Assembly (NCBI RefSeq): GCF_007859865.1
Contig: NZ_SJPI01000003.1
Span: 496,001 to 560,000 of the forward strand
Length of the DNA: 64,000 nucleotides
Source of the DNA: Rubripirellula amarantea
GTDB lineage: Bacteria; Planctomycetota; Planctomycetia; Pirellulales; Pirellulaceae
Direction: 5' to 3'
The position numbers and the translations under genes were made by a program. The notes beneath the pieces are model-generated. The model saw only the letters and a list, made by a program, of their open reading frames with translations. It had not been told where the DNA came from and did no database searches. Position 1 is the first letter of the stretch, and each line of letters opens with the position of its first letter. Positions 30,174 through 44,916 of this stretch are shown piece after piece.

Positions 30174-32978
30174 ATGTTCAAAACCTTAACGAACCGAACC
30201 GAGAACGCGTCGGCTGTGACGACCTGGCAAACTGCGCGAGCGCTGGTCACATGGTTTCCCATCGCCAGCTTCGCATTGCTTCTCGTTCTTTCGTTTACAG
30301 GTGTTGCCCAAGCACAGATCTACGATTCGCTAGACGCATTTCCGCCGCGTTTTTTCTTGGACACTTCCGACTGCAAAGCGCGGGTGCTCGAACACGAGAA
30401 CTTACCTACCGACGGCGTGGATGGTGGCGCATGTGAACAGATCACATTCACTGCCAAGAGCGGCAGCGAGGCCATCCTGGTTTACCCAATCGAACCGGTG
30501 CGCCCACTCGACGACTTAAACGCAACACTCTCCATCATGAGTGCTCGAAGTGGTGCGGCGGTTGGTTTACGCATTCGCTATCCGTTTTTGAAAGACCCCG
30601 AAACACGGCGGCCGGTGTCAACCATCGTTTACGGAGCCAGCTACACGACACCTGGCGAATACGCATCGCTTGGAATCGGCATGATCGAAAAGCAACTACG
30701 ACTGAAGAACGTTGCGCTGCGAAGCCAGTATGGGCCGATCGCAGACTTAAGTGACGCTTACGTTGATGGTGTTATCGTCAATGCGTACGCTGGGCCGGGC
30801 AAGACTTCCATTCGTCTCGATGAACTTCGCGTTGACGGATTGGTTCCCGTCAACGCTGGCATCGTGATGGGCAATCTACGCAGTTCGGATTCGGAATTCA
30901 TTGCATCCCGTCGGTCATTGCAAGGCGGTGACGAGGCTTTCACTCCATCACCGATTGCATTCCCGCTTGGACAGATCACGAAGGTTCTTCAGCACAACGG
31001 TGAACCACTAGGTTGGGTTCGCACCCTTGGCTTTGATGCCGTCCTTCTACGTCACCCACCCGATGCCGCGATTCTGGCAGAGGCGATCCGCACGCGGATG
31101 AAGATTTATGCTCCTGCGCCCACGACTCCCGATCCGTCGATTGAGGCGATGTTAGAACCGGTGGTCGGCTGGTACGTCGGAAGTAATCGAGCCTTGGACT
31201 CGCGCGAAATCGACGAAACAAAGTTAGTGTCGGAACAACTACGTGTTTTTCCTTCACGCTGGCAACGCCCCCTCATTGCGGCCCCTAGCGAATCGTGGCA
31301 ACGCTATGCGCCGATGTTTGACGCCATGATCCATGACCTACCGCCAAGAGTACGCGGTATTCGTGGAAGCGAAGAAGTGGCGGAACTGCATGGTCGCCAG
31401 CGGTGGGTGGGTGACCGGATCCAGGTTGCCGCCGGCGTGAACAGCATGTCTCCTGATTCAATGGTCCACCAAGTCGAATCGATAGCCTCTGCGATTGGTG
31501 CTCCCATGCCTGAAGGATTTCGCTGGCACTCGATGTGGATGCAAACGATGCGTGCACTGCAAAATACGCCAACCGCGATCATCTATCGCTCGTCTCGATC
31601 ACTTGCCTCGGGATCTTCGATCGACCAAACACGAGCAACTTCGCTTAGCTACGTTAATCGAATGGTTGCGATGTTGGGACCTTGGATAACAACGGCCACC
31701 CCCACAACGGCGCCGTTGGTAACCGGAGCAGCCTTTCAATGCGGTCGCCTTACCACTCGCGGAACGGACTTGCTAATCCTGACCTCCAGTGCAACGCGTG
31801 GCAATGAGGTATTAGCCGGTGATGGCAACAGCATTCAAATTCAACTTAGCCCGTCCGATGCTGCCAAAACAGCTTGGCGGGTAACCAACTTTTCTGCCGA
31901 ACGGGTCTCACCTGTTTCTACGCCCACCGGCGCAAGCCTTGAGATCGTGTCACCCGATGTGGTTGAGGTGGTGGTGTTGAGCGATGATCCGGCGACCGGC
32001 GCGCGGCTGGCTCAACAGTGCAGTCGATTCGCTAGGCAAGCAAGTTTGGATCGTTGGCAATTGGCAATGCAGTCGGTTCAACAGACACAAAACGACTGGG
32101 ATCAATCCATTGCAATGCGAGCGAACTCTTCACCTCGACCTACCAACCTGATTCAAATCGCTAGGCAAACCCTTGAAAACGCGGAACCGATGTACCGGTC
32201 GGGTGATTCGGCAACGAGCTTGCGTATGGCTCGAAGAGCCGATGCTTGGGCTCTTCGCAGCGGCTGGCAACTCGCCGAAGCATTGATGCCTGACTGGCCG
32301 ATTTTGACCAGTAGTCCGCCAATGGACATGGGGGCAGCGAGTGTTCAATCCTTGTGGCGTCCATTGATGGATGATGAAGGTTGGGGCGACAACCTACTCT
32401 CCGCAGGCTCGTTAGATTCTGCTGACTTTATCGGCGCAGGGCGGTGGATGTTCGGGCGTCGAATGGCACACCGGGCGCTCAGCGAAGTAACCCATGCAAC
32501 TCGCGGCAGCTACGATGGTCCTGGCGCTCTACGGGCTAGCGTAACGCCGATTGCCGAAGATGAAATGCTAGGTGGTTACGAAGGAACAATCGTCCAAATA
32601 CGCAGCCCTTCGGTCCGAGTTCCCGCGGGCACCGCCATTCGCATTGATGCTATGGTGCGAACCATTGGATTTGGCGGAGCTCATCAAGGACTGCTGGTTT
32701 ACGACACGATCGGTGGGCAACCCATGGGAGTTCTAGTGCGCGGCCGTGCAGACTGGACACCGGTACGCCTCTATCGCCAAACCATAGGCGAAAGCGAGGT
32801 CAGCGTTATGTTTGAATTGATCGGCGCTGGGGAAGTCATGATTGACGAGGTGACCCTACGACGCTGGGAGCCGACTACTGACACTGGCATTCTGCTACGG
32901 CCGATTGATTCTGAGACCATCGAAATTAGCAAAGCAGAATCGACAACGGAGCCACGAATGTCCGGGCTGCCTCGCTGA
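30174..32978 (+). CDS. Large secreted protein of unknown function
   Basis: 934 residues. An N-terminal segment (about residues 27-47, WFPIASFALLLVLSFTGVAQA) is a signal peptide with a long N-region and cleavage near AQA|QIYDS. Residues about 50-210 read as a beta-rich domain. A middle alpha/beta region (GWVRTLGFDAVLLRHPPDA ... LEPVVGWYVGSNRALD ...) has the rhythm of a TIM-barrel glycosidase but no catalytic signature I can name. The last 180 residues (IVQIRSPSVRVPAGTAIRIDA ... EVSVMFELIGAGEVMIDEVTLRRWE) look like a carbohydrate-binding jelly roll. Probably a cell-envelope or extracellular protein. It is followed 54 bp later by a small gene on the same strand. Confidence 0.75.
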   Translation: MFKTLTNRTENASAVTTWQTARALVTWFPIASFALLLVLSFTGVAQAQIYDSLDAFPPRFFLDTSDCKARVLEHENLPTDGVDGGACEQITFTAKSGSEAILVYPIEPVRPLDDLNATLSIMSARSGAAVGLRIRYPFLKDPETRRPVSTIVYGASYTTPGEYASLGIGMIEKQLRLKNVALRSQYGPIADLSDAYVDGVIVNAYAGPGKTSIRLDELRVDGLVPVNAGIVMGNLRSSDSEFIASRRSLQGGDEAFTPSPIAFPLGQITKVLQHNGEPLGWVRTLGFDAVLLRHPPDAAILAEAIRTRMKIYAPAPTTPDPSIEAMLEPVVGWYVGSNRALDSREIDETKLVSEQLRVFPSRWQRPLIAAPSESWQRYAPMFDAMIHDLPPRVRGIRGSEEVAELHGRQRWVGDRIQVAAGVNSMSPDSMVHQVESIASAIGAPMPEGFRWHSMWMQTMRALQNTPTAIIYRSSRSLASGSSIDQTRATSLSYVNRMVAMLGPWITTATPTTAPLVTGAAFQCGRLTTRGTDLLILTSSATRGNEVLAGDGNSIQIQLSPSDAAKTAWRVTNFSAERVSPVSTPTGASLEIVSPDVVEVVVLSDDPATGARLAQQCSRFARQASLDRWQLAMQSVQQTQNDWDQSIAMRANSSPRPTNLIQIARQTLENAEPMYRSGDSATSLRMARRADAWALRSGWQLAEALMPDWPILTSSPPMDMGAASVQSLWRPLMDDEGWGDNLLSAGSLDSADFIGAGRWMFGRRMAHRALSEVTHATRGSYDGPGALRASVTPIAEDEMLGGYEGTIVQIRSPSVRVPAGTAIRIDAMVRTIGFGGAHQGLLVYDTIGGQPMGVLVRGRADWTPVRLYRQTIGESEVSVMFELIGAGEVMIDEVTLRRWEPTTDTGILLRPIDSETIEISKAESTTEPRMSGLPR

Positions 32979-33032: not shown

Positions 33033-33251
33033 ATGCAGCAAATCAAGATATTCAAATTCGTGGACACCGAAATTCCAGAAATGGAACACCAGATCAACCG
33101 CTGGATGAGAAAGAGTGGAGCCAGGATTTTGTCGGTCAATGGAAACTTGGCCTCTCAATCTAGCAGCGGCCAAGGCCCGCTAAACTCGTTTGCCGGCAGC
33201 GACATCATGGTCATCTTGCACTACGAAATAGATCCTCCACAGCCGAAATAG
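33033..33251 (+). CDS. Small protein of unknown function (72 aa)
   Basis: 72 residues, no signal peptide, mixed alpha/beta: MQQIKIFKFVDTEIPEMEH, NRWMRKSGARILSVNG and IMVILHYEIDP suggest strand-helix-strand-strand. It sits 54 bp after the large secreted-protein gene and is followed directly by a candidate terminator, so it looks like a real short gene ending that transcript. No family recognised. Confidence 0.6.
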   Translation: MQQIKIFKFVDTEIPEMEHQINRWMRKSGARILSVNGNLASQSSSGQGPLNSFAGSDIMVILHYEIDPPQPK

Positions 33252-33386: not shown

Positions 33387-33415
33387 TTGCCGGGTTCTGG
33401 ATCTGCAACGATAAT
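33387..33415 (+). promoter_or_regulatory. Sigma-70-type promoter of a short transcript
   Basis: TTGCCG, exactly 17 bp, then GATAAT. Predicted transcription start is near 33422. It lies just past one terminator and drives toward a second at 33665-33710, defining a unit of about 290 nt. Confidence 0.6.
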
Positions 33416-33510
33416 GTGACTGTCGGATCGCGGTAACGCGCTGCGATTGACCCCTTTCATGCGGTCCTCATTCCCTTCTGGTTGGCACCTGGAACGGAGG
33501 ATCGTTAACC

Positions 33511-33639
33511 ATGTTTTTAAAGGAGGTGAGCAAGTGGATTTATGCTGTATTAGCCAACGGGGTGAACACCGTTAGCATGTCGGCGGGCCTCTGCAATTGC
33601 GGCGGTCACCCCCACTCGCTTCGTCAACTTTCCTTGTGA
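33511..33639 (+). CDS. Candidate 42-aa small ORF
   Basis: ATG preceded by GGAGG with 10-bp spacing. It encodes a 42-residue peptide starting MFLKEVSKWIYAVLANG, with a short amphipathic helix, then a Cys/Gly/His patch (GLCNCGGHPHS). It lies wholly inside the short transcript bounded by the promoter at 33387 and the terminator at 33665. It overlaps, in another frame, the 13-codon ORF at 33534. Whether either is translated cannot be decided from sequence alone. Confidence 0.4.
   Translation: MFLKEVSKWIYAVLANGVNTVSMSAGLCNCGGHPHSLRQLSL
33534..33575 (+). CDS. Candidate 13-aa leader peptide with tandem Cys codons
   Basis: GTG start preceded by AAAGGAGGTGA (33519-33529), a perfect complement of the 16S rRNA 3' end, with 7 bp from GGAGG to the start codon; this is the strongest ribosome binding site I saw in the window. 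The peptide is MDLCCISQRGEHR, then TAG. Adjacent TGC-TGT Cys codons lie just ahead of a long hairpin whose left arm contains the stop codon. The arrangement resembles an attenuator leader responsive to cysteine or Cys-tRNA, but no regulated gene follows closely. Confidence 0.45.
   Translation: MDLCCISQRGEHR
33559..33612 (+). other. RNA hairpin overlapping the leader stop codon
   Basis: GGGGTGA (33559-33565) pairs with TCACCCC (33606-33612), extended inward by CCG/CGG with two mismatches. The end of the 13-codon ORF lies in the left arm, so a ribosome finishing that ORF would melt the stem. Confidence 0.5.
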
Positions 33640-33664
33640 TTGCTTGATCAAACGCGAGCACAGC

Positions 33665-33710
33665 CCCGTCTGCTGAGATTACCTTGGTCTCGGCAGGCGG
33701 GATTTTTTTT
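33665..33710 (+). terminator. Strong intrinsic terminator
   Basis: A 15-bp stem (CCCGTCTGCTGAGAT with GTCTCGGCAGGCGGG, three G-U pairs, no mismatch), a 7-nt loop, then A and eight T. It ends the short transcript starting near 33422, and lies about 295 bp before msrB. Confidence 0.9.
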
Positions 33711-33785
33711 GCATAGGATGCGCCCCGGCCACTCGTTGTCGTCAATGCCTTGGGGTTGCTTGTTTGGGTCGCTGCGTTGCATCCT

Positions 33786-33830
33786 GGTTTGCTGCATGGT
33801 GGTTTACTGCAGGGTGGTTTGCTGCATGTG
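33786..33830. repeat. 15-bp direct repeat, 3 copies
   Basis: GGTTTGCTGCATGGT and two near copies are head-to-tail in the msrB upstream region. It accounts for a spurious Cys-Lys-Pro-Pro repeat in a minus-strand ORF. Confidence 0.6.
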
Positions 33831-44818: not shown

Positions 44819-44833
44819 CGCGTGTTGCAAAGT

Positions 44834-44916
44834 AGGGCTGACAGGAATCGAACCTGCACTCCAGTAAAGGAACTGGATCCTAAATCCAGCGCGTCTGCCA
44901 GTTCCGCCACAGCCCC
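44834..44916 (-). tRNA. tRNA-Leu (anticodon UAG)
   Basis: 83-nt class II tRNA. The acceptor arm pairs GGGGCTG with CAGCCCT, with a G-U first pair. The anticodon stem CTGGA/TCCAG encloses loop TTTAGGA, giving anticodon TAG (reads CUN Leu codons). A long variable arm follows (TTCCTTTACTGGAG region), and the T-arm GCAGGTTCGATTCCTGT has the invariant TTCGA. CCA is not encoded; the next bases are ACT. Confidence 0.97.

Follow-up and report, generated by a model that had tools for sequence, protein, structure and literature searches.

A predicted free-standing RNA gene of the Planctomycetota with the anatomy of a ribosome-gated switch

Here, we report a short RNA gene of the Planctomycetota that, to judge from its sequence, stands alone and, with slightly better than even confidence, acts as a regulatory switch gated by the ribosome. 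The gating itself we infer from the anatomy of the RNA. The gene lies in the window, the whole stretch of 64,000 nucleotides from Rubripirellula amarantea that was analysed, which belongs to a genome of 6.9 Mb. Of the genomes sampled from the class, about four fifths have an RNA gene of this kind in single copy, which points to a basic function. Since the RNA has the parts of an attenuator and no gene attached to it, it would be an example of a switch gated by the ribosome that occurs as an independent regulator.

The preliminary description of this DNA had proposed a self-contained short gene with a promoter, a strong terminator and a structured interior, and this proposal, together with the translation of a mini-ORF inside it, is strongly supported. 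On the evidence of its sequence, the interval 33422-33710 of the window is a short gene served by a promoter and a terminator of its own (Table 1). By consensus alone neither element is above chance (two promoter-like sites against 1.8 in shuffles, two terminator-like sites against 2.9). The genus alignment shows conservation of promoter and terminator alike, for the promoter in its CTTG and ATAAT, and the independent transcription unit to be expected of a dual-function small RNA is thus indicated. In distant homologs the promoter was visible by eye only, and the rule used for the terminator matched 25 of 40 loci. The fold of the interval was better than that of all 200 shuffles (z -2.73).

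Table 1. Predicted features of the RNA gene, with positions in the window
Feature	Position	Strand	Remarks
Promoter TTGCCG-N17-GATAAT	33387..33415	+	Predicted transcript start near 33422
Hairpin H1	33427..33447	+	Arms 33427-33434 and 33440-33447; RNAalifold, 21 sequences, two-sided changes at several pairs
Hairpin H2	33461..33504	+	Outer arms 33461-33464/33501-33504, inner arms 33471-33474/33491-33494; loop contains GUUGGC
Pseudoknot PK1, strand GUUGGC in H2 loop	33481..33486	+	Partner GCCAAC 33553-33558, within the ORF; compensatory forms elsewhere
Shine-Dalgarno (SD) AAAGGAGGTGA	33519..33529	+	11 nt exact complement of own 16S 3' end
13-codon ORF GTG...TAG, MDLCCISQRGEHR	33534..33575	+	Start GTG at 33534, stop TAG 33573-33575; ORF kept in 157/157 parsed homologs
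P3 5' strand (R-G codons)	33559..33565	+	Partner TCACCCC 33606-33612
Switch segments A, GGCG loop, B	33575..33592	+	A 33575-33581, loop 33582-33585, B 33586-33592; A:B covaries class-wide
Switch segment C	33601..33607	+	Alternative partner of B; B:C covaries class-wide
P6	33615..33658	+	CTCGC 33615-33619 with GCGAG 33654-33658; by eye in alignments and flanks
Intrinsic terminator and T-run	33665..33710	+	17-pair stem 33665-33701; stem covaries

Conservation in planctomycete relatives, on which the earlier proposal was made to depend, was found already at the DNA level, where the interval matched 24 of 60 relatives and 21 of the 22 in the genus, the window's own genome being counted in both figures. 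Three covariance models, searched in overlapping samples of genomes, extended this range. The model R1 (167 positions, 24 sequences) had matches in 176 of 241 family genomes and in 66 of 296 from the order. R2, built from 77 sequences, matched 215 of 347 class genomes and, phylum-wide, 31 of 343, four of these outside the class. With R3, whose 65 sequences include more distant families and some hits from outside the class, matches were obtained in 255 of 317 class genomes, corresponding to 127 of 161 genera and to 224 of 276 good genomes, and the remaining 62 of the 317 had no match. Across the phylum R3 matched 94 of 343 genomes, nearly always with a single match, 67 of them outside the class and mostly weakly; the out-of-class loci that were inspected (L289, L291, L294 and L298) have the same layout. 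The match in the class search with R3 was single in every genome except two of the 255 (G016 and G287). The draft genome G016 holds two partial copies at the ends of contigs C12 and C14, and a run of N lies inside the RNA at locus L019; both are probably assembly breaks. When named genomes were scanned for the pattern, 35 records came up, all planctomycete and led by Rubripirellula and Rhodopirellula. Rhodopirellula europaea 6C is among the named, cultured carriers, so that the RNA gene is directly testable. A copy on phages was also sought, and none of 50,697 phage records matched.

The 13-codon ORF put forward in the preliminary description holds up well, since its start, open frame and stop are retained in each of 157 parsed homologs, of which 89 are from the family and order and 40 and 28 are more distant, all hand-picked across the score range. 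The start is GTG in 137, TTG in 18 and ATG in two, always behind a Shine-Dalgarno sequence, and the resulting ORF of 10-18 codons is closed by TAG (76), TGA (42) or TAA (39). These calls are to be read with their rules, in that the score used for the 89 favours RG-containing peptides and lengths of 10-17 codons, and in a second parse the starts were set at fixed places with a stop required within 8-19 codons. In 88 of the 89 the start is at the usual spacing, the exception (L151) having a deletion of one nucleotide. No common stop position was found in frames +1 and +2 of the parsed homologs. On a rough tree, built quickly from about 110 columns and with start and stop masked, at least 47 switches of stop-codon type were counted, a number that may be too high. 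Of the nine triplets that a single change of TAG can give, just two are stops, and a triplet that is not translated would therefore lose its stop identity in the course of many changes. The distances inside the ORF behave likewise as a reading frame: among the 89 homologs the start is 25 nt from the P3 anchor in 82, 22, 28 or 31 nt in six and 24 nt in one, and the anchor is 14 nt from the stop in 82, 17 in six and 18 in one. Six of seven length differences before the anchor, and six of seven after it, are thus multiples of three; from the stop to the GGCG the spacing varies from 2 to 15 nt. By comparative evidence the mini-ORF is translated, and the RNA in this respect has the short ORF with Shine-Dalgarno sequence of an attenuator. 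Two other statements on the reading frames fell away. The stop had been placed in the GGGGTGA arm, whose TGA (33563-33565) is out of frame, and the ORF in fact ends at the TAG 8 nt beyond that arm. An overlapping ORF of 42 codons from the ATG at 33511 had also been suggested; among 25 loci (one, L018, is cut at that place) an open ATG in that frame was found only in the window and in L007.

Full complementarity of the Shine-Dalgarno sequence to the 16S 3' end had been claimed as well, and the genome's own 16S rRNA, which ends in ...GGATCACCTCCTTTCT, bears this out with an exact match over 11 nt. Measured against the 16S tail of the window's genome, the exact complement spans 7-18 nt in the 157 homologs and 11-14 nt in 112 of them; among the window's long ORFs, of which 41 were compared with the start crudely set at the first ATG, it never exceeds 6 nt. 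The sequence AAAGGAGGTGA occurs six times in the genome, once opposite the 16S end. In many homologs there is also GGATCACC, a copy of the 16S 3' end itself, behind segments A, B and C, where it can pair with the Shine-Dalgarno sequence or with a downstream GATCC. Masking of the Shine-Dalgarno sequence by a segment of this type reached p<=0.05 in 22 of 88 single sequences, the 89th being too short for the test, and was weak in the clade of the window.

Behind the stop codon lie three segments, of which B can pair with either A or C. Covariation of stems in relatives had been named as a check, and it was seen in H1, H2, the terminator, A:B with P3, and B:C. The alignment used was not fitted to A:B, P3 or B:C; the first two of these helices were chosen from the fold that RNAalifold gave for it. 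For A:B and P3 together 91.1% of cells are paired against at most 50.8% in slid controls, and 66 cells changed on both sides against 17.4 in shuffles. For B:C 91.8% are paired against at most 58.7%, and 33 cells changed on both sides against 6.5. None of 500 shuffles reached the cell counts in either case; when pairs with two-sided change were the measure, 42 of 500 shuffles attained the value of B:C. The slid controls weigh more, because shuffles do not preserve relatedness. Both A:B and B:C can form six of seven pairs in 48 of 65 sequences, and in the window itself five of seven and six of seven, respectively. At locus L262 segments A and C are identical (AGCGACC) and flank B (GGTCGCT). The mutually exclusive hairpins that an attenuator has at its ORF are therefore found here in A:B and B:C, which could also be a single three-way arrangement seen twice. 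The position of the stop codon relative to this region is held in distant homologs, 56 of 68 having it 10-14 nt ahead of a CGGG.

The pairings upstream of the switch segments include the ORF itself. In H2 most pairs show two-sided changes in 4-8 of 21 sequences. The pseudoknot PK1, between the loop of H2 and the ORF, takes compensatory forms by lineage (GUUGGC/GCCAAC, GUUCGC/GCGAAC, UCGGC/GCCGA, CUGGUUGCC/GGUAACCAG and UUGAUUGCC/GGCAAUCAG), and these changes argue for it; single-sequence tests were modest, with p<=0.05 in 15 of 89, 7 of 40 and 4 of 28 homologs. Compensation is seen also in P3, where GGGGTGA/TCACCCC stands against GGGGTGG/CCACCCC, and five of its six pairs form in the window.

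A mechanism may be proposed from this anatomy. In the resting RNA, without a ribosome, the pseudoknot would be formed together with A:B and with P3, which joins the C side to the ORF, and in some lineages the internal copy of the 16S 3' end may mask the Shine-Dalgarno sequence. The long Shine-Dalgarno sequence would then capture a 30S subunit, the ribosome would open the pseudoknot and P3, and on arrival at the stop codon it would cover A, upon which B could fold onto C. In this way the RNA would signal that a round of translation had been begun and completed on it, and a segment set free by the switch may then base-pair with a second RNA, serve as a binding site for a protein or retain the ribosome. 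As to the purpose of such a switch, we tentatively put forward, at well below even confidence, a sensor of the cell's own translation capacity that would be as old as the phylum, equipped with a ribosome-binding site close to the maximum and, in numerous lineages, with a copy of the 16S anti-Shine-Dalgarno sequence that competes for this site. Being switched by a ribosome that terminates at a fixed spot, it would then act in trans, and the peptide would merely result from positioning the ribosome.

The peptide could instead be the product, in a dual-function RNA or small-protein gene whose MxxxCTSQRGGxx would work in trans or arrest the ribosome that makes it, with the RNA structure only tuning synthesis. 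Peptides ending in SQRGGxx are indeed conserved in the order of the window and in the family f22, and in the 76 homologs with 13 codons codon 10 is Gly throughout and codon 9 is Arg in 69. However, the residues Q-R-G-G coincide with the pseudoknot and P3, so that RNA pairing can account for their conservation. In the families f21, f23 and f26, outside the order of the window, the strand of this helix is translated in a different frame to give peptides of types such as CSDNQGRLA, CSGNQVRLL and CGNQRWLL, again with the stop shortly before the hairpin, which argues that translation and the position of the stop are conserved and the peptide is not. The idea of a small-protein gene is thus weakened, the peptide being conserved in the order and f22 and replaced in the three families, and we regard the peptide as an unlikely product. 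A purely structural noncoding RNA with an incidental ORF would fit the strong covariation, yet it would leave the start, frame and stop kept in all parsed homologs, with all three stop codons in use, without a reason, and we hold it to be very improbable. That the RNA is a decoy, whose long Shine-Dalgarno sequence serves chiefly to catch 30S subunits or free 16S 3' ends while the ORF and its stop only release the ribosome, is suggested by the exact complements of up to 18 nt and by the GGATCACC copy inside many of the RNAs. This explanation is improbable, as the covarying alternative helices behind the stop are left unexplained by it.

The preliminary description had also considered a cysteine-responsive leader, in keeping with the tandem Cys codons of the ORF. 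An attenuator of this kind, ahead of msrB or another gene, would make use of the ORF, the alternative hairpins and the terminator, all of them attenuator parts, and a SelR (msrB) gene does follow downstream in the window. The tandem Cys codons are not general, codon 5 being Cys in 71 of the 76 homologs with 13 codons and codon 4 in just 34, and homologs without any Cys codon in the ORF occur (for example L111 and L142). The downstream genes, moreover, vary among clades and genera. Neighbouring ORFs, called mechanically, belonged to the msrB cluster in the window and in four of 20 other mapped loci and to another cluster in most of the rest; they differed in 18 further mapped genomes, and the next ORF was reversed in 10 of 23 mapped loci. 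No conserved co-directional gene that readthrough could reach was found downstream, and as the downstream gene is not conserved the RNA is not a cis-leader of msrB. The probability left to a cysteine-responsive attenuator is therefore close to negligible.

Upstream, a gene of 934 aa (window 30174-32978, + strand) is kept, with few exceptions, across most of the genus where the contig reaches, and an ORF of 72 aa (MQQIKIFKFVDTEIPEMEHQINRWMRKSG...) at 33033-33251 (+ strand), directly upstream of the RNA gene, has counterparts similarly placed elsewhere in the genus (cluster c6). Neither protein had a Pfam match. Between the terminator and msrB lies a tandem repeat of 15 bases in 2.9 copies (TGGTTTGCTGCATGG; window 33785-33828), and apart from a tRNA-Leu at 44832-44916 (- strand) no further RNA gene was found in the window.

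No family of Rfam 15 matched the RNA at the gathering score, and permissive scans gave chance-level hits only (mir-3155 with E values of 0.76 and 3.2, and CC2171 with 0.44 in L023). The tmRNA (RF00023) of the genome is located elsewhere (C3:783713-784092), and 6S RNA (RF00013) had no match at the locus or anywhere in the genome, the same model being positive in 5 of 14 control genomes. The open-access literature that was covered, with most subscription papers outside its scope, contained almost no work on planctomycete small RNAs and no description of this RNA, including the available parts of PMC2864571 and PMC5521070. The candidate closest by name, the Rhodopirellula-1 motif of Weinberg et al. 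2010, is a candidate RNA motif called after a relative and is listed from Proteobacteria and Planctomycetes as likely cis-regulatory (PMC2864571). That listing sets it apart from the present RNA by description, and the two could be identical. With the Rhodopirellula-1 motif compared by description only, the RNA family seems to be new and to consist of parts of known kinds.

Attenuators of the trp and his type have a short ORF with a Shine-Dalgarno sequence, mutually exclusive hairpins next to its stop and a final terminator. The planctomycete RNA shares all of these, but it is a free single-copy gene with no regulated gene attached and has no family-wide run of codons for one amino acid. tmRNA is without Shine-Dalgarno sequence or start codon and has a tRNA-like end; like the present RNA it is a single-copy RNA with a pseudoknot and a short ORF, whereas the planctomycete RNA has both a Shine-Dalgarno sequence and a start codon. 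The rnTrpL of Sinorhizobium meliloti is said to derive from an attenuator ahead of trp genes. As rnTrpL/peTrpL it is likewise a leader RNA with a tiny ORF, for which functions in trans are reported (PMC7298713). The planctomycete RNA differs from it in being a gene to which no operon is attached.
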